Part shown: in pieces, positions 1 to 19,977 of the stretch
Numbering within the stretch: position 1 is the stretch's first letter
Layout of the letters: every line of letters begins with the position of its first letter
Assembly (NCBI GenBank): GCA_013177935.1
Contig: JABLXZ010000005.1
Coordinates: 1-38,032, forward strand
Length of the DNA: 38,032 nucleotides
Direction: 5' to 3'
Source: a candidate division WOR-3 bacterium
GTDB lineage: Bacteria; Hydrothermota; Tepidihabitantia; Tepidihabitantales; Tepidihabitantaceae
Translations under genes and position numbers: made by a program
Notes under the pieces: model-generated
Told to the model about the DNA's origin: nothing
Database searches by the model: none
What the model saw: only the letters and a program-made list of their open reading frames with translations

Positions 1-37
1 GTTTCAATCCTTGTTTTAGTGGATACATCATCATAAC
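1..37 (-). CRISPR. Leader-proximal CRISPR repeat, array continues left of window
   Basis: The window begins with GTTTCAATCCTTGTTTTAGT, which has the form of a CRISPR repeat read on the opposite strand: its reverse complement ends in ATTGAAAC, the usual 8-nt 5' handle left by Cas6. Transcription would therefore run leftwards, in the same direction as the cas operon, making this the repeat nearest the leader. Only one copy is visible, so the right boundary (about position 30-37) cannot be fixed and no spacer can be read. The call rests on repeat form plus the adjacent cas4-cas2-cas1 genes. Confidence 0.62.
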
Positions 38-208
38 CGCACTTTCTTCGTAACAGTTTGAATTTCTGTCATCTCTTTCGTTTTTTCTCCGGCTCTTTTT
101 CCCAAAATTACACCTTCAAAATGGCGTCGCAAAACGCAAAAATAGCCGTTTCTGCAGAGTTTCGCAAATGTAAGTTCCTGTTTTTCTTTAAAATAGAAGA
201 GCGCCATC
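38..208 (-). promoter_or_regulatory. Probable CRISPR leader
   Basis: This AT-rich stretch between the cas4 stop and the first repeat is where a leader belongs when cas genes and array are transcribed in the same direction. On the minus strand it has runs of T and A and no convincing gene. A 70-codon open frame crosses it and overlaps the cas4 3' end, but it shows no domain, no good ribosome-binding site and low-complexity lysine-rich content, so it is treated as non-coding. The leader's own promoter could not be placed with confidence. Confidence 0.5.
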
Positions 209-2103
<1,895 letters not shown>

Positions 2104-2107
<4 letters not shown>

Positions 2108-2282
2108 AAGGAGTTTATAGAGTTTTTCCTTAGATAACTTGAAAAACCCATAATCATCTTTGATATTTCATCAGCCGTTTGATACAGAGTTTCAAACTCA
2201 TTTCGCACAATATATTTCTGGTCAAGGGCAACATAAAGAGCTGCCATACCTTTATAACTTCAAACCTATTTATCTTTGCCAT
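2104..2282 (-). pseudogene. Remnant of an S23/IVP four-helix-bundle protein gene
   Basis: The 200-base gap between cas6 and cas1 is not empty. On the minus strand an ATG at 2282 opens MAKINRFEVIKVWQ, the typical start of the S23 / 23S-rRNA intervening-sequence four-helix-bundle family. After a frame change comes ALYVALDQKYI, then NEFETLYQTADEISKM and MIMGFSSYLRK, the typical C-terminus of that family, ending in a TGA that overlaps the cas1 ATG. About 60-70 central residues are missing. The joint falls in GGCAGCTC, which can be read in both frames, consistent with deletion between short repeats (inference). The product cannot fold as the normal bundle, so it is called a relic. Confidence 0.72.
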
Positions 2283-2309
2283 TTCATTACTTCTCACGAC
2301 TCAACAACT

Positions 2310-2978
2310 CTATAAACTCCCAACTCTTAAACTCTTTTTAATCGTCCCGAACCCTCTTGATACCGATTTTCCCAGACCCCAGTAGTCAGGAATCTCAAAA
2401 TTGACCACAAACTCGCCTAAAAATCCAAGCATCGGTGTGCCTTTCAAGGTAGCACGAATTTCTTTCATACTCAAGGTTGCTCTTAAGTCATTCTCCACGA
2501 CATACCCCAACCCCTTGGACATTGAAAGAATGTTACCAATCAACGCACGCTTTAAAATTTCATCTCGTTTGTCGGAGTTGACATATATTTGAAAATTTCT
2601 CTCGTTAAGAGCCAACCACGGAGTAATGAATACATATCTATACTCTTCGTCTGTCGAACCAAAAGAAACAGTGGTCATCTGTAAACCCGGTTCGTAGAAC
2701 TCTAAGCGATTCGATACCAATTTAAGGTTGATTATTGTATTCTGGATGGTTGTAAGTAACGCAATCCCCTCTTCAATAATGACAATATAAGCTATTCCGT
2801 CTATAACCTTAAATTGGATTCGGGGATAGGTGTAAAGAAACCCGTTATCTAAATGATGATGAAATAAAGGGTTGTCAGGAAAAAGGCGACCGAGATATCC
2901 CCGGATTACTGCAGCTTCATAGGGCTTCAAAGGACGCGATGCCGGAATTTTTAGGGTAGCTACCGCCAGAGTCCTCAT
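2310..2978 (-). CDS. cas6: CRISPR pre-crRNA endoribonuclease Cas6 (Cas6b type)
   Basis: This 222-residue protein cleaves the CRISPR transcript within repeats to give mature crRNA. The C-terminal half has the Cas6b-type pattern: an IGNILSMSKGLGY helix (about 148-159), LKGTPMLGFLGEF (178-190) and the glycine-rich loop YWGLGKSVSRGFG at 199-211, which contacts RNA in Cas6 proteins. The N-terminal half (NPLFHHHLDNG) is histidine-rich and fits the Cas6b N-domain; the catalytic His is likely among His40-His42, but this cannot be fixed from sequence alone. It lies 12 bases after csc1. Its ribosome-binding site is weak, so coupling to csc1 is likely. Confidence 0.87.
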   Translation of the reverse strand: MRTLAVATLKIPASRPLKPYEAAVIRGYLGRLFPDNPLFHHHLDNGFLYTYPRIQFKVIDGIAYIVIIEEGIALLTTIQNTIINLKLVSNRLEFYEPGLQMTTVSFGSTDEEYRYVFITPWLALNERNFQIYVNSDKRDEILKRALIGNILSMSKGLGYVVENDLRATLSMKEIRATLKGTPMLGFLGEFVVNFEIPDYWGLGKSVSRGFGTIKKSLRVGSL

Positions 2979-2990
2979 ATATTATTAATC

Positions 2991-3722
2991 CTATACAATA
3001 ATTGTGCGCCCTCCATTTCTCACCATTTTCAGCACAGGAAGTTGCCATTCATCTGGCAAGGCTATAACCCTTAGCATCTGCTCTTCCTGGGATTTTGCCA
3101 CTACACCACGCGCGATTGTCGCGTTATCGACTATGGGATATGGGAACATATTTACCATAACTCCCCTAAAAACCTTAGTTATTAAAGGGTCAACGGGATG
3201 GGAGGCTGTTTGTTCTTTTTCAAATACCCCGACAATTTCCAACTCTTCAAGATGAAGGCGTGCCTTACCACGGAATGAGCCAAGACGAATAAGGCTGGGA
3301 AAAACAACATCCGTCTTGGAAATCAAAAAACCTTTGAATTCTGCCTCCGGCGGAAGATAGTTTAGTATCTCAGCCTTTAAGACTTCACCCCTCTTTGTTT
3401 GTGCAACAAAACCATCGTTTTCACCTTTAGTCCATTCTGGCAAGTATTTCAACGGAGTTGTTAACCTGGCCGGGGTAAAATAAAACTTATCAGAAGCAAG
3501 CGAGTTTTTATACCGCGGGGTATTTCTGCCACCATTATGCTCGCCAATTACATAAGATTGGTGTTGGGGGTCCAGCCCCGTGACCTCAGGCGAAATTACA
3601 GCAGTTACGGCAAAATTAATTGCAGTGGCGTGGAGATAATGGGGTGTATATGCCGCAGACAGACCCTCCCGGGCGTAAAATAATGGGTCGAGGAGATAAA
3701 TAGAGCAGGCAAAAACCTTCAT
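2991..3722 (-). CDS. csc1: Type I-D Cascade subunit Csc1 (Cas5-like)
   Basis: This 243-residue protein is identified as Csc1, the Cas5-group RAMP subunit of type I-D Cascade that caps the crRNA 5' handle. The start (about 6-40) has the family pattern of a strand, LDPLFYAREG, then a PHYLHATAINFAV segment equivalent to the conserved 'thNyALtYAl' region. The position between csc2 and cas6 supports the call. The C-terminal part is variable in the family and is recognised mainly from context. The gene starts 14 bases after the csc2 stop with a weak AAGAG ribosome-binding site. Confidence 0.82.
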   Translation of the reverse strand: MKVFACSIYLLDPLFYAREGLSAAYTPHYLHATAINFAVTAVISPEVTGLDPQHQSYVIGEHNGGRNTPRYKNSLASDKFYFTPARLTTPLKYLPEWTKGENDGFVAQTKRGEVLKAEILNYLPPEAEFKGFLISKTDVVFPSLIRLGSFRGKARLHLEELEIVGVFEKEQTASHPVDPLITKVFRGVMVNMFPYPIVDNATIARGVVAKSQEEQMLRVIALPDEWQLPVLKMVRNGGRTIIV

Positions 3723-3736
3723 TTTGATGACTCTTC

Positions 3737-4567
3737 TTACTCTTTTTCTGCTTCAGCCGTCACCTTTTGTTTTTTCTTACCTTGCCCCCCTTCCCCTTCG
3801 GGTAGTATTTTGATAATTGCATCAGCAACTTTACGAAAAGAATCCTCAACAGGTGGGAGCTGTAAATCTTTAATGTTGTTTAAGTCGGCTGGCATCTCTT
3901 GCACTATGTCGTAAGAAGAAAGCATCTCTCTATCACTTAATACATAACCGATTATTTCAGTCTTCACCTTACCCCATTCCCTGGTTGATGCCCCCAAGCG
4001 AGTAAGCCTATTCAGGTTGTCAACCAAAATAGCAGTCAGCTCTTTGGTGGGGTCTCGTAAAGTAACGACACCAATAAATTCGGTCTCAGTGGGTACTTTT
4101 ACAATCGTCATCAGTGCTTGCCCTGTAGTTAATGTTTCCTCGTCAACAGCATTTGCCGTGTAAGCAGATATATCTTTTACTTCTGTTTGCGAGATGAATG
4201 TTTCACCTAAAACCCTCGATAACAGGTTATAACTCGACTTTGTTTTAGATGTTTCACCGGTACCGCCGAATAAGAGGCAAGCAGGACACTTCATACAGAG
4301 ATTGTCCTTTAAATAACATTTAGAATCCTGAGGGATATTTAACTCCCGTTGTTTTTCCATAACCATTCTGCGCAGTTTGCCTTTAACCTTTCGCCAAGGG
4401 ATAATGAATCGGGTCCCGAGTTTTTTGTAGGTGAAAGTTAAGACCTCCTCGGGTTCATTGGAGCGGATTATCGCATCGTCCAGAAGTGTTATCTTTACTA
4501 CCAGTTGAAGATAACGGCCCCGCGGCAATACCTTTATATCATTAAAAAAGCCCATTGCGTTAGTCAT
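3737..4567 (-). CDS. csc2: Type I-D Cascade backbone subunit Csc2 (Cas7-like)
   Basis: This 276-residue protein is Csc2, the Cas7-type RAMP that polymerises along the crRNA. Family features include the N-terminal GRYLQLVVKITLLDDAIIRSN strand-helix, a basic GKLRRMVMEKQRE helix, and a small cysteine cluster, CYLKDNLCMKCPACLLFG (about 104-121), typical of the Csc2 zinc-binding insertion. The tail (about 255-276) is rich in Lys and Glu. The ATG follows GGAGG with good spacing and overlaps the cas10d stop by 8 bases, so translation is probably coupled. A second in-frame ATG lies four codons on. Confidence 0.9.
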   Translation of the reverse strand: MTNAMGFFNDIKVLPRGRYLQLVVKITLLDDAIIRSNEPEEVLTFTYKKLGTRFIIPWRKVKGKLRRMVMEKQRELNIPQDSKCYLKDNLCMKCPACLLFGGTGETSKTKSSYNLLSRVLGETFISQTEVKDISAYTANAVDEETLTTGQALMTIVKVPTETEFIGVVTLRDPTKELTAILVDNLNRLTRLGASTREWGKVKTEIIGYVLSDREMLSSYDIVQEMPADLNNIKDLQLPPVEDSFRKVADAIIKILPEGEGGQGKKKQKVTAEAEKE

Positions 4568-7133
4568 TTATGACCTCCTTTAGGTTTTGGTACCTCGTTA
4601 AAATAAAGATTGCAGAAAGCAGTGAGTTCTTGGCCTTCAAGAAGTCGCTTAAATCGCTCTTACGGATTGCGTAATAGCGTTTAAGGATTTCCTTGGCTTT
4701 TTTAACAAAGTTACTCAATTCACCTTGTTCTTCTTGACCGATTTTAACCGATAAATTCCGCATAAACCTTTCCATCGCCATATCAAAAGATAATCCTGCC
4801 ATAATGGCATCAAGAGCCTGTGCAACGGGTTTCCCTGCCTTATGCTTAGACAAATCTTTCCAGAACTCGCCTCTTTTTTCAGGTTCCACACAAAAATGTG
4901 GGATCCCTTTTTCTTTGTCGGCAAAAAATGCCGCGTCTTTTAAAAGATTGTCCATAGTTAGTTCACCTCCTTCTATAATTTTTAAGTTTGCCATCTTTAA
5001 CGCCTTAATTAACCACGAGGCGTATAATTCAAACTGCTCTTTGGTAAACCTCTTTTTTCCCTTACCTTCTCCTATGTCAGCCAATGACATTAGAACGGTA
5101 CTCGGTGAATTAAGAATCAAATTCCGAGCGAAGACAAATTGCTTTTGTGTTTTGCCAATAATATTTGCCAGCAGAATCGTCGCCAGAGAAAGGTAATAAT
5201 TTTCGCCCCTCTCATCAGTTAAGACATCTTCACCAAAAAGCCCAACTTGCTCTTCTGCACCTATTGAAACCTTAAAACCAAGGTATTTCATTATGTGATA
5301 CAAAGGTTCGTACTTTGCCTTTAAGTCTTTGGGGCTATATTCTTCTATCGCAATATCTCTCCCTATTACAAATAAAATTCCGCTGTCGCTCTGCAATATC
5401 GGTTCTTTTGTCAACTCATCTATATCCCTCTCGGTGCCGATAGGAATTTCTATTCGGTCAGGAAAGGGCAGGTTGTTCAATTCGGGAATTTTTCTGAAAT
5501 TAGTAATCTGCCGTGGATTTCTCACCCCAGCAGCCACCATTGCTATAAGCCTTTTTATTCCCTGATAGTGTAAAAGCATATCCGGGACTTTAGTTTCAAG
5601 TCTTAAATAGATACGATTCTGATTACTTCGAACATCTCGCCTAAGGGTAAGATTGTCAAACCCGCACAAGCCACAGATTGCACGATAGTCATACTTTGCC
5701 TTTATTTGAGAAAACGACTGGGGACTCTGTGATAGATTTAATGCCGGTTGCATTTTTTGGGAAACTGGACAGCCGCATCTTTCACATACCCCTCTTTCAG
5801 CATTGGATGTTTTTTTGTAATTGCGATATCTCTCAAAACACAATTCGGCCAGCCCGCGAAAATCGGTTTCTTCGTCCATTGAGAGACTAACTGAAATGTA
5901 ATCTTCAAGATCTGAATTATGCTCTTTTTCTTGGGTCCGTGCAGCAGCCTCCAATATTTCAAATAGTTCAATAGGTTCCAGCGTTGCCAGTTCAGTTTTC
6001 TTGCCTACAGGTAAGTTTAAATTCGGAGGGAATAAATCCACAACCCGCGCTCCGTCAAAAAGAGGGTCGATCATTTGTCTATTAACTTTTTCCGGAGGCT
6101 CTTTTTTGGTAAACTTTTTGAACAACGCCTTGCTAAATCTGTGTGCACTGGTACTATTTGCACTCTCGATTACACCAAGTATCCAGGGATTATTGAGTTC
6201 ACCTTTTATTAACCTTTTCGTCAGTCTATCTGGAATCAAATTGCGGGCAGATAAAATGTCTCTCGCCAATTTAAAAAATACTACCGCCTTCTGGTCTCTA
6301 TTTCCAAGGGCATTAAGTATTTGTTCCTTATTGCATGTTAAAAATACATCCGGATATTCTCTTGAAAGAAGAGTCAAAAAGTCGCCGGTGTAGTTTGATG
6401 GAAGTTTTTGCAGGGAAAGCGACCCCTTTATTATTTCTTCATTAATTTTCTTAACGCAACCAACTTTTTCAGGCAGCGCTGTTTTAGGTTTAGAACTAAA
6501 TATAGCACCATTTTCAAAAGTTCTCAGGAGAAGCCACCCTTTCTCTTTATAAGATTGAATCAAAATATCTACAACTTTGAATGTCGTGGGAGAAGCAAAA
6601 CGCGAAAAAGAGAAGTAGGTGAAATCTATTTTATCTCTATACAATTCCCGAAGGCGATAAAGGGTATCAAAAGCGATAGTTTCCATTGAAGCGATATAAT
6701 CGGCAGTTCTCAATAAATTGGTAAAGAAAGAGGCACCAGGAGTGCGGATTTCACTTAAATCGTGTTCGGCAACGCTATGGTGTGTGTGTATGATATCTCG
6801 TATTTTTTTTATCTTTTCCTCGGGAATAGCATCCAGGATTCCAGCATTTTTAAAATACAGCTTCAAATCCTCCAACTCTATACGATGTGTAACCAGGCTT
6901 TCATTATTTTTTAACTTTCTCTGGTTTTCATCTCTCATTTTCCCTATGTCATGCACAAGACAAGCGACCTCTATGTCTTCTTTTTCCTCTTCATCAAGAG
7001 ATGGACAGAGTTTGGCAAGGTTCTTAAAGATAGACCAGACCGCAAAGTGATGCGCATACAGTAATTCGCCGTTGGACTTTGCCCAATATCCAAATTGAGG
7101 GTTTAATATTTTTATAACTTCCTCAATTTTCAT
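4560..7133 (-). CDS. cas10d: Type I-D large subunit Cas10d (Csc3) with N-terminal HD nuclease
   Basis: This 857-residue protein is the large subunit of type I-D Cascade. In this subtype the HD nuclease that usually belongs to Cas3 is carried by Cas10d, and here the HD domain (about 20-160) shows His28-His29, His61-Asp62 in LVHDIGK, the His116-His119 cluster in IHTHHS, and Asp145. A zinc finger sits at Cys450, Cys453 and Cys487, Cys490 (Cys455 also nearby). No GGDD cyclase motif is seen, as expected for Cas10d. The open frame extends to 7208, but that would run deep into cas3'. ATG 7133 gives an 11-base overlap and a GGTGG site, so it is preferred. Confidence 0.92.
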   Translation of the reverse strand: MKIEEVIKILNPQFGYWAKSNGELLYAHHFAVWSIFKNLAKLCPSLDEEEKEDIEVACLVHDIGKMRDENQRKLKNNESLVTHRIELEDLKLYFKNAGILDAIPEEKIKKIRDIIHTHHSVAEHDLSEIRTPGASFFTNLLRTADYIASMETIAFDTLYRLRELYRDKIDFTYFSFSRFASPTTFKVVDILIQSYKEKGWLLLRTFENGAIFSSKPKTALPEKVGCVKKINEEIIKGSLSLQKLPSNYTGDFLTLLSREYPDVFLTCNKEQILNALGNRDQKAVVFFKLARDILSARNLIPDRLTKRLIKGELNNPWILGVIESANSTSAHRFSKALFKKFTKKEPPEKVNRQMIDPLFDGARVVDLFPPNLNLPVGKKTELATLEPIELFEILEAAARTQEKEHNSDLEDYISVSLSMDEETDFRGLAELCFERYRNYKKTSNAERGVCERCGCPVSQKMQPALNLSQSPQSFSQIKAKYDYRAICGLCGFDNLTLRRDVRSNQNRIYLRLETKVPDMLLHYQGIKRLIAMVAAGVRNPRQITNFRKIPELNNLPFPDRIEIPIGTERDIDELTKEPILQSDSGILFVIGRDIAIEEYSPKDLKAKYEPLYHIMKYLGFKVSIGAEEQVGLFGEDVLTDERGENYYLSLATILLANIIGKTQKQFVFARNLILNSPSTVLMSLADIGEGKGKKRFTKEQFELYASWLIKALKMANLKIIEGGELTMDNLLKDAAFFADKEKGIPHFCVEPEKRGEFWKDLSKHKAGKPVAQALDAIMAGLSFDMAMERFMRNLSVKIGQEEQGELSNFVKKAKEILKRYYAIRKSDLSDFLKAKNSLLSAIFILTRYQNLKEVIND

Positions 7134-8736
7134 GTCTGCCACCATAGAAGACATAGTGGTCTTTTGCCAATATCCGGAGTTCATTTCTGCCCTCATCATA
7201 AACAACATTCGGCCTTGAAGAGTATTCTCGTGCCAGTTTTCCGGTTAATACTCCCCAGAACGGGAACAGCTTGTCTCTTAATAATATAGTTTCCCATTCA
7301 GATTCCGGAATCCTAAATTCCCTCAATGTCTCACCCTTTTCATCTTGAGATTTTCGTTGCCATTCGTATTCATAGTCATCGTCAATGTCATACATAGAAA
7401 AAAGTGCCTCGTGGTAAATAAAATACTTATTAAGTTCGGTGTCAAAAAGCAAAAAATTAAAATTCTTCCCGCGAAAACAATCGCCAAAAACCAAATCCTC
7501 ACGGGGATTGGGAAATGCTTCCTTTAAAACTTCTTTTTCAAAAGATGTTCGCTCCCAGTTTTTCTTCCCTTTTATATAAGGCCGTAAATCTTTTGCTGTC
7601 AAAAGAACGGCCGTGCCTGCTTCTTTTCTTCCAACCCGTCCCAGTCTTTGAATCGCAGAGGTCCAATAACTGGCTTCAAATATCAAACTTTTAAAAGGCA
7701 TATCTATTCCAACTTCTATGGCGGAAGTGCCCAACACAAAGGTCTTTTCGGTTATTGGATGTACTAAGTCCTTCTCCAATCCGCTCCATTCAACGATTTC
7801 TATCTCGTTAAAGTTCTGGTTTAGCAAATTGCGTTTTATATGCTGTAATCTGAATACACTGTCTGAAATATACGCCATTGGTTTAGGAAGTTCAACAATG
7901 AGCGATGTAATCTTCTCCAGTGTTTGCGCGATATTGGTCAGTCTAAAATTGTAATAATCAAAATTCAAGGGGTAATTGAATATCTCGTCTCGCTCACTAC
8001 CCTCAGAATTATTAAAATCTATATGAGCAAAACTATACCTCTTCTTTAATTCTTTTAAGGCGGTACTTTCGAATGGTGTGGCAGAAAGCATTACTACTTT
8101 GTTTACATTTTTTGATAATAACTCGTCTACTAATATTGGAAAATTTTTCAATTCCGAATAAAGATGAAATTCGTCAAAAATTACAATGGCATTAGCAAGT
8201 GCATTCTGAATCTCCTTTGACCTTGTGTATGCCTCTTTATATATTAAAAAAAGTACATCGGGCGAGGTAATCACACCCCCCTTTTTTGAATGCCACTGCA
8301 GGTCAAAAAACAGTTTTTCAATCAGTCTTCCGCGACTTTCAATACTCTCAATTTGTTTACTTCGGAGGTAATATAATAAAGAATCCGATGAATATAGAAA
8401 GACATTAATCCCACCACTAATAAAATCTGTATAGGGCCATACGCCTACTCGTCCTTCTCCGACATCCTTCCCAAGCGACCTCACCTGAGTTTCCATTAAG
8501 ATTTTTGTCGGGTATGTAAATACCAAAGGTATTCTCTCAAAAGAGTTAAGCTCCAATAACTTTCTAATAACATGACTCTTCCCCGAACCAACGGGGGCTT
8601 CTACAAAGATTAATTTTGCGTCTGAATTTGTGAGCAACTCAATAATCTGTTTTTGAAAAGGACGGAGACCATCATCACCTTGTTTCACAAATCGAGGACT
8701 TATATGGAGCATTGCTTCTCTCTTCTCCTCTGCCAT
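7123..8736 (-). CDS. cas3': Type I-D CRISPR helicase Cas3' (no HD domain)
   Basis: This 537-residue superfamily 2 helicase is the Cas3' of type I-D, which unwinds and translocates target DNA while Cas10d supplies the nuclease. Visible motifs are Walker A APVGSGKS (47-54), the DExH box DEFH (188-191), motif III SATP (218-221) and motif VI QRLGRVGR (363-370). There is no HD domain, matching the HD found on Cas10d. It is the first gene of the cas operon, about 50 nt from a strong promoter. An alternative start at ATG 8712 has a better purine-rich site, so the first eight residues are uncertain. Confidence 0.92.
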   Translation of the reverse strand: MAEEKREAMLHISPRFVKQGDDGLRPFQKQIIELLTNSDAKLIFVEAPVGSGKSHVIRKLLELNSFERIPLVFTYPTKILMETQVRSLGKDVGEGRVGVWPYTDFISGGINVFLYSSDSLLYYLRSKQIESIESRGRLIEKLFFDLQWHSKKGGVITSPDVLFLIYKEAYTRSKEIQNALANAIVIFDEFHLYSELKNFPILVDELLSKNVNKVVMLSATPFESTALKELKKRYSFAHIDFNNSEGSERDEIFNYPLNFDYYNFRLTNIAQTLEKITSLIVELPKPMAYISDSVFRLQHIKRNLLNQNFNEIEIVEWSGLEKDLVHPITEKTFVLGTSAIEVGIDMPFKSLIFEASYWTSAIQRLGRVGRKEAGTAVLLTAKDLRPYIKGKKNWERTSFEKEVLKEAFPNPREDLVFGDCFRGKNFNFLLFDTELNKYFIYHEALFSMYDIDDDYEYEWQRKSQDEKGETLREFRIPESEWETILLRDKLFPFWGVLTGKLAREYSSRPNVVYDEGRNELRILAKDHYVFYGGRHEN

Positions 8737-12218: not shown

Positions 12219-13595
12219 TTATTCTGATTCATCCCGGGGCTTTATGCCCAGCACCTGAAAAAGGACATCCTTACCGGCGTTGAGCCGCCACAGGGCAAGG
12301 GTTGAAAGCGCCCGCACCGTATGACGAACCGGTTTACTTCCCGGCTCCTGAACCTTCAAAAGTAGGGGCAGACAGGCGAATCGGGCAAGACCGGCAAGAA
12401 AGAACATCACATCGTAGTTGTAGAACCGGACCCCGAACAGGGCAAGATGAAATCGGGAAAGGAACTGGGCAACAGTACCGGCAATAAGCGAAGCAAAAAA
12501 GGCACCCAATCCGGTGACCACGGTGTAAATCGCAAAGTAACTCTCCTTGCGTGCCGGATTGTCCGCAAGGTCAAGTAACAGGTTCCACAACCCCAAACTC
12601 GCTCCGGTCCAGACCACACCGTTGAGTACGCCGTCAATCCAGATGGGCAAACGAAACTCAGGCGTGGCAAAGAGCCAGAGAAACGGCATCACGCCCACAA
12701 CCGCAAAGTTTAACACCGTTACCGGTCTGGAGCCAAACTTGTCTATCGCCCTGCCCCAGAGGAGTTGAAACAAGACGCCAATCACCCCGCCAATCATTGA
12801 GTAAATCGCAATTGAGGCGAAACTGAACCGGAGGTTTTTAATCAGATGTACTAAGTAGAATGGTGAGGCAAGGGTGCCGGTCAAAAACCAGACCGCGAGA
12901 AATGTGGTCAAGCGCCGAAACTGCGGCTCCTGTAAAGGACCAAAGAAAATCTCTTTGAACCCGGATTGCGTGCGGGGCGCCAGCGCCGGTTCGGGTTGCC
13001 GGGTGAGGAGTAAGGTGGAGATGAGCCCGAACAGAACCGCGAGGGCAAACGCCAGCGCATAACCGAGCCCTTCGTTGCCCGTCGCCTTTAAGTAGTCCAT
13101 ACCCCGACCCGCACTGTATCCGGCAAACACACCAATCACCCCTAAAATCGCATTGCGCAGACCGAAGAATCTGCCCCGGCGCTCTTCCGGCACAAGGTCG
13201 CGCACCCAGGAGGTCCAGGTTGTACCGGCAATCTGCATCAGGATGCTGGAGAGCGCCACCACCACCAAAAGAAAAACCACACCGGGCTTGACCTGTAAAA
13301 ATAGAAAGGGCAAGAGCAGGATAAACGCGGTCCTGCCCAGACCTGCACTCCAGATTACCAGCCGCTTGCGGCTTTGGGTAAGGCGCAACAGGTAGTTGGT
13401 CAGGAAACTGAACACCGTGGACAGCGCCGGAATGCCGGACAAAAGCGCAATCTGAAATGAGTTGGCACCGAGATAAAGCGCCAAGCCGGCAAGAAACATT
13501 CCGCCCGCAAGGGTGGTGTAAAGGGTGGCAAACGCCCCTTCAATCACCGAAATTTTTAACCCCTGCTGAATCTCCTTATCCGAAAGCGGGCTCAT
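12219..13595 (-). CDS. Major facilitator superfamily transporter
   Basis: This 458-residue membrane protein has about 12 hydrophobic segments in two halves, with a longer hydrophilic loop after TM6 (about 200-220) as in MFS carriers. The loop between TM4 and TM5 holds the short basic motif VPEERRGRFFGLRNA, a common MFS signature. The substrate cannot be inferred. The ATG overlaps the lipA stop as ATGA, so it is the last gene of the redox operon. Its 3' end meets the secreted BNR/Kelch gene tail to tail, nine bases apart with no clear terminator. Confidence 0.85.
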   Translation of the reverse strand: MSPLSDKEIQQGLKISVIEGAFATLYTTLAGGMFLAGLALYLGANSFQIALLSGIPALSTVFSFLTNYLLRLTQSRKRLVIWSAGLGRTAFILLLPFLFLQVKPGVVFLLVVVALSSILMQIAGTTWTSWVRDLVPEERRGRFFGLRNAILGVIGVFAGYSAGRGMDYLKATGNEGLGYALAFALAVLFGLISTLLLTRQPEPALAPRTQSGFKEIFFGPLQEPQFRRLTTFLAVWFLTGTLASPFYLVHLIKNLRFSFASIAIYSMIGGVIGVLFQLLWGRAIDKFGSRPVTVLNFAVVGVMPFLWLFATPEFRLPIWIDGVLNGVVWTGASLGLWNLLLDLADNPARKESYFAIYTVVTGLGAFFASLIAGTVAQFLSRFHLALFGVRFYNYDVMFFLAGLARFACLPLLLKVQEPGSKPVRHTVRALSTLALWRLNAGKDVLFQVLGIKPRDESE

Positions 13596-14476
13596 CGGAA
13601 CAGTTCGGCGGCACGATAAGAGGAACGGACCAGCGGCGCAGCAAAAACCCTCTTGAACCCCATCTTCTCACCCGCGTCCTGAATCGTCTTAAACTCCTCT
13701 AAACCCCAGTAGCGCGCCACCGGCAAAGCGCGGCGGCTCGGTTGCAGGTACTGGCCGATGGTCACGATGTCACAACCCACCGAACGCAAATCTTTTAGCG
13801 TGGCAATCACCTCATGCATCGTCTCACCCAGACCAACCATTAAACCGCTCTTGGTTAGCATCCCGGGTGCCAGTTCTTTGACCTTTTGCAACACCGCCAG
13901 CGAAAGCCGGTACCCGGCACGCCGGTCGCGCACTAACGGTGTCAACCGCTCAACCGTCTCAAGGTTGTGGCCAAACACATCCGGTCCGGAATCAACCACC
14001 TGTTTAATCAACCCCTCCTGACCGCCAAAGTCCGGCACCAGCACCTCAACCCGCACCCCCGCTGCACCGTTTGGGTCTGCCGATTTTCCATCCGCACACG
14101 CATTTTGCTTGACCAGCCGCACCGCGCGGGCAAAAACCCCAGCACCCAGGTCAGAAAGGTCGTCCCGGTCAACTGAGGTCAAAACCAGATACTTTATTCC
14201 TAACTCCTGAACCAGTTGCGCAATCCGCTCCGGCTCGGTCTCATCAATTCTACCGCCAGGATTTCCTTTCTGTACCGCGCAGAACCGGCAACTCCGGGTG
14301 CAAACATCACCCAGAATCATCAATGTTGCGGTACCGGAGTTCCAGCACTCGGTTAAGTTGGGACAGCGGGCATTAGAACAGACCGTGTTCAGGTGGTACT
14401 TGCGCAGCAGTTCGTTTACCCGGTCAAATTCAGCACCGGTTGGTAAGCGGGTTTTTAGCCAGGAAGGTTTTGGCAC
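13592..14476 (-). CDS. lipA: Lipoyl synthase
   Basis: This 294-residue radical SAM enzyme inserts two sulfurs into octanoyl groups on lipoyl domains. Both iron-sulfur sites are complete: the auxiliary cluster CSNARCPNLTEC (Cys33, Cys38, Cys44) and the radical SAM motif CTRSCRFC (Cys59, Cys63, Cys66). The C-terminal RSS motif that supplies the serine ligand is present (Ser285). A short extra loop rich in Ala, Asp and Gly (about 128-142) is unusual. The start is GTG at 14476, four bases after the stop of the upstream gene and without a clear ribosome-binding site, so it is probably coupled. No lipoylated enzyme or lipB lies nearby. Confidence 0.95.
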   Translation of the reverse strand: MPKPSWLKTRLPTGAEFDRVNELLRKYHLNTVCSNARCPNLTECWNSGTATLMILGDVCTRSCRFCAVQKGNPGGRIDETEPERIAQLVQELGIKYLVLTSVDRDDLSDLGAGVFARAVRLVKQNACADGKSADPNGAAGVRVEVLVPDFGGQEGLIKQVVDSGPDVFGHNLETVERLTPLVRDRRAGYRLSLAVLQKVKELAPGMLTKSGLMVGLGETMHEVIATLKDLRSVGCDIVTIGQYLQPSRRALPVARYWGLEEFKTIQDAGEKMGFKRVFAAPLVRSSYRAAELFR

Positions 14477-14480
14477 CGGT

Positions 14481-15761
14481 TCAGGTTGATATCTTTAAAC
14501 TCGATTTCGGGCAGTTCCAGACACATTCAAAGCAGCGGATACACTCCCCTTGATTTGGCTCTTCATAGGGTTCGATGTCCATCGGACATACCCGGCGGCA
14601 GATTGTGCATTCTGTGCAGGTTGCGGTGTCCAGTTTCATCCGCATTAAACTTGCCCGGTTGAACAATGAGTAGATGGCACCAATTGGACATACCGCCCGG
14701 CAAAAGGGCCTTTTGATGACCATTGCCGCCCAGATGACAAACATTAAAATCGCCACCTTGTAATAGAACAACCAGGAGACAAGGCTGCGCAACCCCTGAA
14801 CCGGGTCCCAGAGGACTAAAGGTATCCCGGCTTCCAAGGTGCCCTGCGGGCAAAGTTTGCAGAACCACGGTTCGCCGGTGAAGAAAGCCAGAATCCCGGC
14901 AACGAGGATGAAGAAGACAAACTTGAGCGATGTGACCGGCAGGGAAAGTTTGAGTCCAAGGTCAAACAGCCCGATTAGCACCACCACCCCGAGTACAAGA
15001 ATTAAACCCAGTTCGGCGCCGGCAAAAGGTCCAATTTGGAGCGGTTTGCCGAAAAGGGCAAGAACAAAGACAAGCGGTGCGGCAAGGAGAAGCACCCGGC
15101 TACCACCAATCAGGCTGAACAGGGTGAGCGCACCAACACCAGCCGCAATTCCCAGACCAACATCAAACTTGACCGCGATTAACAAGCCGAGCAAAACACC
15201 GACTAGCATGCTACCGAACCACCATCTCTTTGGTAACGCCATCTTGCCCTTGTGCAGGCTGTATAAATACAACCCGATAAACGGCACCCAGCCGAAAAGC
15301 AGCGACTTCCACACCGCAACCTTGACAAACAGGGCAAGTAAAGCAACCGCGATTAAGCCGATGCCGCTGACGACCCCAAAAGTGAGCCAGCCTTTGGTCC
15401 CGGCTCTTTTGCCCAGTTTAATCTTGTAAAGCAAATCCTGCCACAACCCGAACGGGCAAACCCAGGCACAGGCTGCCCTTCCGACAAAGGCACCGATGAT
15501 GAGAAATAGACCGATGATAACCCAGGGCACCCTTTGCCACCAGATTATACCCTGTTGACCGAGAATCTGCTGGAACGAACCGAGCGGACAGGCAAAGACC
15601 GAAAGCGGTCCACCGTAGCAGTTGAGCACCGGTTCAGGAATACTTTTGAGAAATCCGGAATAGAGAATTTTGCCCTGGACATAGGCGAGGATATATCCGT
15701 TCAAGATTACCGTAGCGATTATTTGGCTGATGCGGTAAGGAGCGACCCTTCTTTTCGCCAT
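14481..15761 (-). CDS. NapH/CcoG-type membrane polyferredoxin
   Basis: This 426-residue protein combines about ten membrane segments with cysteine motifs of iron-sulfur electron carriers. Cys98 and Cys102 (CAWVCPFG), CKLCPQG and CRAVCPIG are membrane-edge CxxxCP/CxxCP motifs typical of the NapH/RnfD-adjacent family. Two [4Fe-4S] motifs, CTECTICRRVCP and CIRCFECVWNCP, form a C-terminal ferredoxin domain. It probably moves electrons across or along the inner membrane. Its neighbours are two extracytoplasmic thioredoxin-fold proteins, which suggests it feeds reducing power to them (inference). The exact redox partner is not known. The ribosome-binding site AAGGG is weak. Confidence 0.86.
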   Translation of the reverse strand: MAKRRVAPYRISQIIATVILNGYILAYVQGKILYSGFLKSIPEPVLNCYGGPLSVFACPLGSFQQILGQQGIIWWQRVPWVIIGLFLIIGAFVGRAACAWVCPFGLWQDLLYKIKLGKRAGTKGWLTFGVVSGIGLIAVALLALFVKVAVWKSLLFGWVPFIGLYLYSLHKGKMALPKRWWFGSMLVGVLLGLLIAVKFDVGLGIAAGVGALTLFSLIGGSRVLLLAAPLVFVLALFGKPLQIGPFAGAELGLILVLGVVVLIGLFDLGLKLSLPVTSLKFVFFILVAGILAFFTGEPWFCKLCPQGTLEAGIPLVLWDPVQGLRSLVSWLFYYKVAILMFVIWAAMVIKRPFCRAVCPIGAIYSLFNRASLMRMKLDTATCTECTICRRVCPMDIEPYEEPNQGECIRCFECVWNCPKSSLKIST

Positions 15762-15946: not shown

Positions 15947-17452
15947 TTATATCCGGCTGATTAACTGCAGTTTCGCACCCCGAAACGGCGCCTCATAACG
16001 GCACACCCCACCCGAACAGGTGTAACCCCCTTTCTCCGCGCCAATCCGCAGCCGCAACACATTCCGCTCGCTGATGTTCCAGACCGTCTCAAACATCGGC
16101 CAGGACTTCTGGTTGTCGTAGCGATGGAGTGAGTCCATATCAACACCCTGCCAGCCCAGGGTGAAAAGCCATTTGGCACCGTACCCATAACTGAACGAGA
16201 TTAAAGGTTCGTGATAGCGCCACCAGGTTTCCGGGATGGGTTCGCTCGGCTGTTCCTGAACCCAGCCCAGTTCCGCCTCAAGGGTAAAGGTGTGCTCACC
16301 GGTCAGAAAGTTCACAAGCAGTCCGGGCCGGTCTGTTACCCGGGAATAGGTTCCCAGTTCAATGTTCTTCTGCAACATATGGTTGAACTTGACCTCCCAG
16401 TTCCAGTTTGCGCCAAGGCTGTATCTACCCTTGATTTCACCTTCTAAAACCCCGGCTGAGGTGTCGTCGTGGACAAAGAGCCGGCCCAGTTCACCTTCCA
16501 GGTAAAGTTGGTCAATCGGTGTGCCCGAGACCGTGAGCCCGAACCCGCGTTCATCAACCCCCCGATTGATTGCCACCCCGGACTTAATCGGGGTTGGTGG
16601 GTCGTTGTAATGGTACACCCCTTCGGGAAATCCCAAACGGGTGTAATCAACATACTGACCGAGTATGGAAAAACCGGTCAGGGCAAGGCTGGCGTTTGCC
16701 ACATAACCAAAACCCTTTTCCCTGCCGCCAATGCCGGGCTTTGTTCCCAGACGCCAGGCAACCTCACCACCCAGCGTTACCGGACCAATGTCAACACTGA
16801 CATCACCCCCGAAAAGTTCGGTAAACGCCTTTGGGGTCGGGTCAACATCCCGATTAATCCGCACATACCTGCCCCCCAGCGCAAGAAACTGAACCGGTCG
16901 AGAACTTATGTTGGCACCTAAAACCTGGTCGGTGGTGTCCAGTTCGTTCATTATCTTATAGGTGTTCTCCTGGAAGAACACATCCCGTAACCTGCCGCCC
17001 AGTAGCGTCACCTCGCTCGCCAATGGCAACTGGAATCTGCCATAAAGCCCATGCAAACTTTTGTAGTGCCGGAAATCGTCATCCGAATAGGTGCGCAGGG
17101 TCAAGCCCTGGCCAAAGGTCGTAAAAAATCTGCCCAGTCGCACCTCTAACTCTGCCGGGTTGTAGGCGATGGAGTAGTCCAGAAGCCGCAACGGCTGGCG
17201 CGGCGCAGGACTGTGTTTTGATGGTTCAAAAAAGAGCACGCCCAGTTCACCTTCAAAATCACCGTAACGGGCGATTAAATCCAGTTTGTCCTCAATATGG
17301 GTCGCCCAGTTTGACTCGTACCCCCAGAACTCGGCGCGATTGGAACCCTGAATGGAAAAGTCGTTCCCGAAAACCGCGGTGACAAGAAACAGAATCGCAC
17401 AGCCGGGTATAAGCAAAATTACCTGTGCGCTTCTGCCCTTTTGTGCCCTCAC
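15947..17452 (-). CDS. Outer-membrane beta-barrel protein, DUF6029-like
   Basis: This 501-residue protein has a signal peptide (about 1-29, hydrophobic VILLIPGCAILFLVTAVFG). It then alternates short amphipathic strands and turns across its whole length, ending LQLISRI, with an aromatic/hydrophobic tail pattern typical of barrels. The early segment (FSIQGSNRAEFWGYES, then LDLIARYGDFEGELG) fits the DUF6029 group of FCB outer-membrane proteins. The start is GTG overlapping the upstream thioredoxin stop (GTGA). It shares an operon with two exported thioredoxin-fold proteins, so it may bring in or anchor a redox substrate, but this is inference. Confidence 0.75.
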   Translation of the reverse strand: MRAQKGRSAQVILLIPGCAILFLVTAVFGNDFSIQGSNRAEFWGYESNWATHIEDKLDLIARYGDFEGELGVLFFEPSKHSPAPRQPLRLLDYSIAYNPAELEVRLGRFFTTFGQGLTLRTYSDDDFRHYKSLHGLYGRFQLPLASEVTLLGGRLRDVFFQENTYKIMNELDTTDQVLGANISSRPVQFLALGGRYVRINRDVDPTPKAFTELFGGDVSVDIGPVTLGGEVAWRLGTKPGIGGREKGFGYVANASLALTGFSILGQYVDYTRLGFPEGVYHYNDPPTPIKSGVAINRGVDERGFGLTVSGTPIDQLYLEGELGRLFVHDDTSAGVLEGEIKGRYSLGANWNWEVKFNHMLQKNIELGTYSRVTDRPGLLVNFLTGEHTFTLEAELGWVQEQPSEPIPETWWRYHEPLISFSYGYGAKWLFTLGWQGVDMDSLHRYDNQKSWPMFETVWNISERNVLRLRIGAEKGGYTCSGGVCRYEAPFRGAKLQLISRI

Positions 17453-18018
17453 TGGCTGCCACCCTTCTCGCCTTCAGTGCTATCACCCTTCTCCTCTTCT
17501 GCTTTCTCCGGCAGCCACTTCCCAATCTCATCCGCAATCCGTTTTTCATCGCCCTTCTTGTACCCGATATGGGTGAACACAATCTCGCCCTTGGTATTAA
17601 TCAGCACCGCAGTCGGTTTGATGATGATGTTGTAAGCCTTCTTCACCTTCTGCTGCTGGTCAAGTACCACGATGTAGGGCCATTTTTTACTTTTGACAAA
17701 ACTGCGCACCCTTGCCTCATCGGAAGGTTTATCAACCGAAAGGGCAACAATCTGTAACCCCCGTTCCTTCAATGAGTCGTAAACCGGTACGAGCGCATCC
17801 AGTTGAGCAATGCAGTTGACACAGGGCAAATCCCAGCACTCCATATAAACCGGTCCGTTCTTTAACAATTCCGAAAGTTTCACCTCAACGCCGTTGATGT
17901 CCTTCAAGGTCCAGTCCGGTGCCTTGGGGAACTTTTTTTCTTCCTTCTGCGCCTCTGCCCCAAACGCAATCAGGGCTGAGAGCAGGCTAAAACATATCAG
18001 TGTCTGATATCTCTTCAT
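17449..18018 (-). CDS. TlpA-like exported thioredoxin
   Basis: This 189-residue protein is a thiol-disulfide oxidoreductase of the TlpA/AhpC-TSA type. A Sec signal peptide (about 1-23) ends near FGAEA. The thioredoxin fold follows with APDWTLKDINGVEVKLSEL, the active-site stretch CWDLPCVNC (CxxC at Cys66 and Cys69, with Cys61 just before), and the cis-proline region IIIKPTAVLI. The usual Trp-Cys pair is replaced by Pro-Cys. The tail is Glu/Lys/Gly-rich. The ATG at 18018 sits 5-6 bases after GGAGG; an upstream GTG is less likely. It lies between the Omp28-like gene and the barrel gene. Confidence 0.87.
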   Translation of the reverse strand: MKRYQTLICFSLLSALIAFGAEAQKEEKKFPKAPDWTLKDINGVEVKLSELLKNGPVYMECWDLPCVNCIAQLDALVPVYDSLKERGLQIVALSVDKPSDEARVRSFVKSKKWPYIVVLDQQQKVKKAYNIIIKPTAVLINTKGEIVFTHIGYKKGDEKRIADEIGKWLPEKAEEEKGDSTEGEKGGSQ

Positions 18019-18033
18019 CAACACCTCCGCTTC

Positions 18034-18817
18034 CTAATTTTTTACCCTTCGTTTAATTGCCGACTGCAACACGGCGCGGGTTGTAACATCCTGAACCGAT
18101 ACCGCTAATCCAACCCGGTCGATGTTGTAGCCTGAAACCGGTGCCCAAAGCAGGGTGTCGTAACTGGCTCCAAACTTTAACTGCACCGGTATCCCGAAAC
18201 CTGTCGCCGACCACATTACGCACCACCCGGGAGATGTAAACCGTATCACCCATCAAGAGCGAGTAGTAGGGCACGCTGTCCTCATAGACCACCGCAACCA
18301 GGCGTAAACCGGTCATCTCATTGACCGTGGAATCGGTCGGCTCAATGTGAACCTGAATCGCAATCCGCTGCGAGTCAATCACGGTGCTGTCCAGTTTCAA
18401 CTCGAGAAAAGTCTTGCGCGCCCGGGCACCATCGGTCATATTCCGATAAATCGGGTAAAATGAGTCGGGCAGCGTCACCTGCGGTGCCCGATTGGTGCCA
18501 TCAAAAAATGCCAGTGGTAAAAGGGTCGGCTCCACACCATACCAGTTCGCCCGCGCCCTTCCGGCTTCGCTTTCCAGTTCTGGATGCGACTCCGCCGCGT
18601 AGTACACAATTGGAACCACCGAATCACCGTAAATCATCGTCAAACTGTCCAGCGCCTGCAACGCAGACGCACAATAGGCTCACTCATCAGGTAAAGTGGA
18701 AAACAGTTCAAGAAACACCACCCGGTTTGCTTCCCGCTCAATTAACGGTGCTTCGGAACAGCCCAAAATCGTCGCCAGAGCCAGCACTGTCAAATAAAAA
18801 AGTTTGTGCTTAACCAT
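18034..18817 (-). CDS. Omp28-like thioredoxin-fold lipoprotein with in-frame UGA; candidate selenoprotein, frameshifted
   Basis: ATG 18817 opens a lipoprotein signal (ATILGCSE, Cys20 lipobox), then VVFLELFSTLPDE, an in-frame TGA at codon 46 (18682-18680), then AYCASALQALDSLTMIYGDS. Thioredoxin-fold homologs have CxxC here, so UGA stands for the first cysteine: UxxC. The following text (VVPIVYYAAESHPELESEA and the NWYGVEPTLLPLAFFDGT region) fits the Omp28-related family. Near 18195-18199 the frame must move by +1, after GDRF, to give the natural end GIPVQLKF...VSVQDVTTRAVLQS. With both events read through, the product is 260 residues. Either a selenoprotein with a sequencing or real indel, or a decaying gene. 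It heads the redox operon. Confidence 0.7.
18652..18682 (-). promoter_or_regulatory. Candidate bacterial SECIS: UGA plus downstream hairpin
   Basis: On the minus strand TGA (18682-18680) is followed by nine bases and then an 8-bp stem: GCGTCTGC (18670-18663) pairs with GCAGGCGC (18659-18652), with one G-U pair, around a GTT loop (18662-18660). The loop begins with G and lies 17 bases after the UGA. This fits the position and loop type of known bacterial SECIS elements, which sit directly 3' of the UGA inside the coding region. Chance cannot be excluded in GC-rich coding sequence. Confidence 0.55.
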
Positions 18818-18907: not shown

Positions 18908-19357
18908 TTAGTCCTCGGCAACGATGCTAATCTCTTTTGCCTTGGACTTCTCGGACTTCGGCAGGACCAGTTCCAGCACTCCGGCACGGTAAGTTGCCTT
19001 TGCCTTGTCACCCTCAACCTCAACCGGCAGCGTTACCGTACGCTGGAACTTACCATAGGCGCGCTCAATCCGATAATAGGTTTTACCCTTCTTTTCTGTC
19101 TCCTGCTTCCGCTCACCGGAAATCGTCAGCGTATCACCCGAGAGATTGATTTTTATGTCATCTTTACTCATACCGGGCAGTTCCGCCCGAACAATAACCG
19201 CCTCATCGGTCTCCTCAATGTCCATCGGTGGTGCCCAGTAGGTTTCACCCCGCTCCCGCGGGAACCTGCCAAAGACCGAATCAAACAAACGGTCCAGTTC
19301 ATCCCGCAGCGAAACCATCTCCCGGAACGGGTCCCAGGTTGTCAGGTGTTTAGCCAT
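18908..19357 (-). CDS. Hsp20 small heat-shock chaperone
   Basis: This 149-residue protein is a small heat-shock chaperone that holds unfolding proteins in the cytoplasm. A short N-terminal arm (WDPFREMVSLRDELDRLFD) precedes the alpha-crystallin domain (about 40-138). This domain includes the AELPGMSKDDIKINLSGD region and the conserved AxYxxGVLELVLPK end (ATYRAGVLELVLPK). The C-terminal I-x-I anchor is present as ISI just before the end. Start ATG 19357 is eight bases after AGGAGG; upstream in-frame ATGs overlap or precede that site. It follows the FmdE-domain gene by 66 bases and has its own terminator. Confidence 0.95.
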   Translation of the reverse strand: MAKHLTTWDPFREMVSLRDELDRLFDSVFGRFPRERGETYWAPPMDIEETDEAVIVRAELPGMSKDDIKINLSGDTLTISGERKQETEKKGKTYYRIERAYGKFQRTVTLPVEVEGDKAKATYRAGVLELVLPKSEKSKAKEISIVAED

Positions 19358-19423
19358 TTTCATCACCTCCTTTTCGTTTTTCTTAATCTCCACCTTATTA
19401 GACTAATCCGACCGTTTCGGGAT

Positions 19424-19942
19424 TCACCGCTTCGAATCTTCCTCTTTTTCACTTATAAACAGTTGAACGAATGGTTTTTGGGACACCTGATGAGCACGAG
19501 CGATAGCCTCGTTTTTCTTAATTTTAATAAGCGTCTCGAACACTTCGCCTCGCACCTTAAATGAGACCTTTTCCGCGGTATCTCGATGTTCAAAAACGAC
19601 CCGGCACCCACCTGGTCTTACCCGATGTTGAATATTGCTCTTACCCATTGTACAACCTGAACCTAACTGGACCCCATCAATAAAACAGCTTACCGGCGGT
19701 TTTGCCGGACACTCAACAACCGCCCTCAGGTCAAAGGGCGACCCATTCAACATCTTTCGAGCACACCTGCCCGCACGCAAACCTAAAACCAGCCACGGAC
19801 CAAGATGGCCATGGAACCTCTCTGCCCTCTTCAACTCCCGGGGCGGTAATGTTGCTTGACCGTGTCTAACCACTGGGGATACGGACTCGGGCTTCTGCCC
19901 TATTCGCTTTCGGTTTTCCTGTTCTTTCTGATTTTTGCTCAT
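19424..19942 (-). CDS. FmdE-domain metal-binding protein
   Basis: This 172-residue protein has an FmdE domain, named after subunit E of formylmethanofuran dehydrogenase but widespread as a single-domain protein. The family motifs are clear: FHGHLGPWLVLGLRAG (His44, His46) and SCFIDGVQLGSGCTMGK (Cys86, Cys97), with Cys78 just before. These residues bind metal in the family. The partner and substrate are unknown; no molybdoenzyme genes lie nearby. A lysine-rich N-terminus (about 1-25) precedes the domain. The upstream in-frame TTG is unlikely. ATG 19942 lies 7 bases after a TATATT box, so the message may be leaderless. Confidence 0.82.
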   Translation of the reverse strand: MSKNQKEQENRKRIGQKPESVSPVVRHGQATLPPRELKRAERFHGHLGPWLVLGLRAGRCARKMLNGSPFDLRAVVECPAKPPVSCFIDGVQLGSGCTMGKSNIQHRVRPGGCRVVFEHRDTAEKVSFKVRGEVFETLIKIKKNEAIARAHQVSQKPFVQLFISEKEEDSKR

Positions 19943-19949
19943 CCCTCTT

Positions 19950-19977
19950 AATATACCCTGGGTGTCCAACAACGCAA
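19950..19977 (-). promoter_or_regulatory. Possible promoter of the FmdE-domain gene
   Basis: TATATT (19955-19950) on the minus strand is a good -10 box, with a poor -35 (TTGCGT, 19977-19972) 16 bases upstream. It ends seven bases before the ATG, so transcription would begin at or next to the start codon. Confidence 0.4.

Follow-up and report, generated by a model that had tools for sequence, protein, structure and literature searches.

A UGA codon in a surface-lipoprotein gene of a candidate division WOR-3 bacterium is, very probably, a site of selenocysteine (Sec) insertion, and the product would be an exported redox lipoprotein. The stretch of DNA analysed here (the window, 38,032 nucleotides) is the entire contig C5 of a 1.96-Mb genome that consists of 5 contigs and is 98.6% complete. 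The codon, the hairpin that follows it, the Sec machinery and the protein fold were assessed by sequence comparison and structure prediction, and from these we infer Sec insertion itself. The gene has the following features:

18054..18817, minus strand: candidate selenoprotein gene (UxxC thioredoxin-fold, Omp28-like lipoprotein), read with TGA as Sec; the last ~48 codons are out of frame in the window copy
18758..18817, minus strand: signal peptide with lipobox; predicted lipidation at Cys20 (18760-18758), with SEAP after it
18680..18682, minus strand: in-frame UGA, codon 46, putative Sec of a UAYC redox motif
18652..18670, minus strand: SECIS hairpin with an 8-bp stem (18670-18663 with 18659-18652) and a GUU apical loop (18662-18660); the stem starts 9 nt past the UGA
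18200..18201, minus strand: private 1-base insertion (an extra G) that shifts the frame near codon 206; neither the sister species nor the other relatives have it

Read from the ATG at 18817 on the minus strand, the frame contains a single TGA (codon 46, 18682-18680), and the residues around it are LFSTLPDE-U-AYC-ASALQALDSL. UAYC thus stands in place of a CxxC, exactly as stated in the preliminary description of this DNA. The hairpin also has the dimensions given there: the two arms of the stem (GCGUCUGC and GCAGGCGC) form eight base pairs starting 9 nt after the UGA, and the GUU loop begins 17 nt past the codon. The fold energy of the lone hairpin is not unusual when compared with shuffled sequences (z 0.09). 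A single sequence therefore proves nothing in this case, and comparison and covariation were used instead.

At the exact offset from the UGA, at least seven of the eight pairs can be formed in 34 of 37 Sec genes and in none of 18 Cys homologs; of 7836 in-frame control positions taken from the Sec genes, no more than 53 reach this value. Judged from these sequence comparisons, the occurrence of the hairpin at a fixed offset in the Sec genes is far beyond chance. When the 37 sites were aligned, 92% of the cells were paired and six of the eight pairs showed double changes, so that pairing across relatives, which the preliminary description had singled out for comparison, is both conserved and covarying. 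The covariation score was reached by none of 500 shuffles, and sliding the partner by 1-3 columns lowered the pairing from 92% to 23-52%. The loop sequence among the 37 sites is GGA in 27 cases, GGC in five and GUU in two, the window being one of the latter. A covariance model was built from the 37 sites, the window sequence among them; in the 1.96-Mb genome, its sole significant site is the UGA hairpin (38.9 bits, E 1.6e-6), and the second-best match scores 16.5 bits. An Rfam scan of the window returned a CRISPR repeat alone and no SECIS family.

The published bSECIS model places the loop 16-37 nt from the UGA, with a G in the first two loop positions and an MFE of -7.5 or lower (PMC13188914). 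The WOR-3 hairpin agrees with this consensus in that its loop lies 17 nt after the UGA and consists of three nucleotides starting with G, on a stem of 8 bp. It differs from the consensus (PMC13188914) in being short and uniform, with mostly a GGA triloop and one fixed offset throughout the class.

Homologs of the gene were found in 74 of 150 related genomes. Outside its own genome, the eleven best homologs belong to the same genus or family and have 38-88% identity; each contains exactly one in-frame TGA. In close relatives, TGA, reading frame and hairpin are all preserved and no further stops occur. When 55 WOR-3 homologs were aligned, every one of the 37 in-frame TGAs came to lie in a single column, which is occupied by Cys in the remaining 18 sequences; these are the Cys/Sec pairs that the preliminary description had proposed to look for. 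One well-supported sister pair combines a Sec form (ARUTYC in L030) with a Cys form (ARCTYC in L039). On the tree the two forms are clustered yet exchanged, with at least three changes, two of which are forced by well-supported branches. A close-alignment search of genome contigs yielded matches in a WOR-3 MAG (SKW181) and in an uncultured bacterium bin.

Sec insertion depends on dedicated genes, and the four that had been named for a search, selA, selB, selC and selD, were all found in the same genome. SelA scores 567.6 bits (cut-off 267.9), SelB 383 bits (cut-off 242) and the tRNA-Sec encoded by selC 74.2 bits (gathering score 47); the latter is also called by ARAGORN as tRNA-SeC(tca). The selD gene follows directly after selB and was recognised by sequence and position, without a model score. 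It has an in-frame UGA of its own at the catalytic position (L001:3396-4433, TCAGUASK), and SelD is thus likely to be a selenoprotein itself in this organism, so that Sec seems to be employed here in one classical selenoprotein family at least. Plain ORF calling mis-starts selD.

The distribution of selB follows that of the TGA form. It exceeds the cut-off in 38 of the 42 genomes that have the TGA form and in five of 32 homolog-bearing genomes without a TGA (Fisher p 4e-11, uncorrected for relatedness). Among the four TGA genomes without selB, three have selA and fragmented assemblies. One observation counts against Sec: in genome G029 (L084), which is 91% complete, neither selA nor selB was found, and it contains a UANC homolog with a good hairpin.

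Three other explanations of the UGA have to be weighed against Sec insertion. If the codon were a true stop, a second short protein would have to begin downstream, and a mechanically called ORF of 202 aa does open at TTG 18661. A stop at the UGA would cut the thioredoxin fold at its active site, however, and the segment between the UGA and the TTG ORF is conserved in both protein and RNA, while the Cys homologs are translated straight through the position of the UGA; we regard termination as practically excluded. Decoding as an amino acid other than Sec, be it through reassignment to Trp or Gly or through a Cys tRNA with a UCA anticodon, is the second alternative; in the alignment the UGA lies opposite Cys, and a UGA-reading tRNA-Cys would give the same picture. 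A reassigned code is at odds with TGA being an ordinary stop: it ends eight of the 30 genes in the window, among them the gene that follows in the cluster, and several of the UGA-containing homologs themselves. It is also at odds with the presence of selABCD and with a covarying SECIS element at a fixed distance, and we consider it extremely improbable.

The remaining alternative is that the TGA and the frameshift together mark a decayed or misread Cys gene. It draws on the private insertion near the end of the window copy, an extra G at 18201/18200. This base puts the last ~48 codons out of register, and over the ~12 kb aligned with the sister species (G001) no other indel breaks the frame well within a gene without being compensated. 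The preliminary description had called the frame coding-like on both sides of the UGA; this holds around the codon, but not at the 3' end, where the extra G interrupts it. As the insertion is private to the window copy, it stems either from an error in the assembly or from a very recent mutation and plays no part in the mechanism; the UxxC domain is left untouched. The TGA, on the other hand, is common to 37 homologs from many families in a single column, which makes a misread TGC or TGT untenable, and the hairpin covaries. In the comparison with G001, 71 of the 103 substitutions after the UGA are at third positions, a strong bias that points to purifying selection, and ~60 nt around the UGA and the hairpin are identical in a locus that is otherwise ~84% identical. 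The frameshift alone is private. For the family, a decayed or misread Cys gene is already refuted, and overall we hold it to be very unlikely, although the window copy, with its last ~48 codons frameshifted, may be a fresh pseudogene. The selenocysteine interpretation of the preliminary description was thus correct in substance, and the machinery, the Cys/Sec column and the covarying hairpin support it very well.

By prediction, the product is a lipoprotein whose thioredoxin fold resembles that of Omp28 and HBP35. The lipobox, judged by eye, reads ILGC-SEAP, and Cys20 is invariant in 50 aligned homologs. A structure model of the intact sister protein (mean pLDDT 92.5) has a predicted layout of signal peptide, thioredoxin domain and C-terminal beta domain, and residue 46 sits just before a helix formed by residues 47-66. 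The top Foldseek match of this model is HBP35 of P. gingivalis (PDB 5y1a, E 3.6e-11, TM 0.71/0.60), followed by Omp28 of the same organism (PDB 2r2c, E 6.9e-5). HBP35 is thus the best fold match, and its thioredoxin activity requires its two active-site cysteines, i.e. is CxxC-dependent (PMC2907840). It differs from the window protein by sharing only 13% identity and by having Cys where the latter would have Sec; HBP35 also binds hemin, and it is located at the cell surface and has a conserved C-terminal domain.

From these elements, a mechanism can be proposed. The hairpin immediately downstream of the UGA would be bound by SelB carrying Sec-tRNA(Sec), and Sec would be inserted at position 46, the N-terminal end of the first thioredoxin helix. 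After export and lipidation at Cys20, the protein would work outside the cytoplasm as an oxidoreductase of the UxxC type, in thiol/disulfide exchange or a related two-electron reaction. Extracytoplasmic thiol redox chemistry is thus the activity that we would expect of the Sec lipoprotein.

The relationship to known families makes the novelty of the finding smaller than the preliminary description assumed. There, an Omp28-type selenoprotein was thought not to be an established family, which is wrong: NCBIfam holds NF045500, "Omp28-related selenoprotein", which corresponds to GOS_C of 2008. GOS_C, a UxxC selenoprotein with a Trx-like fold, was described from the 2008 Global Ocean Sampling data under the label of a hypothetical protein, represented by 74 sequences (PMC2398784). 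It is listed with NF045500 and the UxxC motif in a 2026 catalogue that covers 119 families and subfamilies of prokaryotic selenoproteins (PMC13188914 Table 1), where MDP6169091.1 is given as the representative. The window protein shares with this family the thioredoxin-like fold, the UxxC motif and the relationship to Omp28. However, it scores only 23.9 bits against NF045500, far below the cut-off of 200, and the product of the intact sister gene scores 24.5 bits. The weak match aligns residues 30-202 with model positions 37-209 without a net shift; the model has 377 positions, whereas the window protein is a lipoprotein of ~250 aa. None of 390 relatives searched has a genome that passes the NF045500 cut-off. 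Given these scores, we have filed the protein as a divergent branch and not as a member of NF045500. By sequence it lies outside the curated equivalog; it would work like the family and is probably a distant relative of it. With Sec at the redox site almost certain, the WOR-3 protein would form a divergent, widespread branch of the selenoprotein superfamily known from marine metagenomes.

With Omp28 itself (PF11551, NF033782; PDB 2r2c) the protein has in common that it is a predicted lipoprotein and matches the fold; it differs in having Sec instead of Cys, and it stays under both curated cut-offs, with 11.7 bits against PF11551 (cut-off 34.9) and 18.3 bits against NF033782 (cut-off 150). NF033782 is matched at E <= 0.001 by 49 of the 50 homologs. 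In a literature search, no paper was found that connects selenoproteins with WOR-3 or Omp28. The related genomes also contain a second group of Omp28-like proteins (L055, L059, L060, L065, L070, L071, L072 and L074), which are longer, mostly ~600-670 aa, with UPYC or UTYC at the place of a CxYC in others. In this longer group, the UGA is followed by a hairpin that departs from the 8-bp GGA pattern, so the SECIS element is a different one.

The gene is the first of a cluster, the other members of which are, in order:

17449..18024, minus strand: TlpA/ResA-like periplasmic thioredoxin with CVNC; conserved next gene, likely redox partner
15947..17452, minus strand: DUF6029 protein, probable outer-membrane barrel (presumed localisation); conserved in the cluster
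14481..15761, minus strand: NapH-like membrane 4Fe-4S polyferredoxin; conserved in the cluster
13592..14476, minus strand: lipoyl synthase (radical SAM), end of the cluster; conserved within the family

The CVNC motif that had been reported for the next gene is indeed present in the TlpA-like thioredoxin. The order of Sec lipoprotein, TlpA-like thioredoxin, DUF6029 protein, NapH-like polyferredoxin and lipoyl synthase is identical in relatives of the same family wherever the contig extends far enough. L107 and L108, two genomes from a different family of the class, also have the order of lipoprotein, TlpA-like protein, large envelope protein and NapH-like protein; outside the window, neighbours were identified by eye from their sequence and size. 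Directly upstream of the Sec lipoprotein gene, an Hsp20 chaperone and an FmdE-family protein are encoded (18908-19972), as they are in G001 and G002; they were not seen in the more distant relatives read. The edge of the window (1-8736) contains the CRISPR repeat (CRISPR-DR7), then apparent cas4, cas1 and cas2 genes and further cas genes up to a helicase, in a type I-like arrangement.

The conserved gene order suggests an envelope redox chain, in which electrons would pass from the NapH-like polyferredoxin membrane protein to the CVNC-containing TlpA-like protein and on to the Sec lipoprotein. We put this path forward tentatively, with somewhat less than even confidence, and the substrate of the Sec lipoprotein is a guess from gene order. 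It is conceivable, though less probable than not, that the NapH-like polyferredoxin, the DUF6029 protein, the TlpA-like CVNC protein and the UxxC lipoprotein of the cluster constitute an undescribed selenium-dependent extracytoplasmic electron relay that is found throughout the class and in which Sec would perform a reduction at the cell envelope.

Since ORF calling by standard means ends such genes at the UGA, part of the envelope redox chemistry of an uncultured phylum is hidden in the databases. The case described here provides a divergent branch of the Omp28-related UxxC selenoproteins with a clear class-wide SECIS element and Sec/Cys exchanges, and the tie of this branch to a conserved redox cluster leads to a concrete hypothesis for the role of Omp28-like proteins. 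If the relay is real, the Sec of the terminal lipoprotein would reduce disulfides, peroxides or an inorganic acceptor at the envelope.
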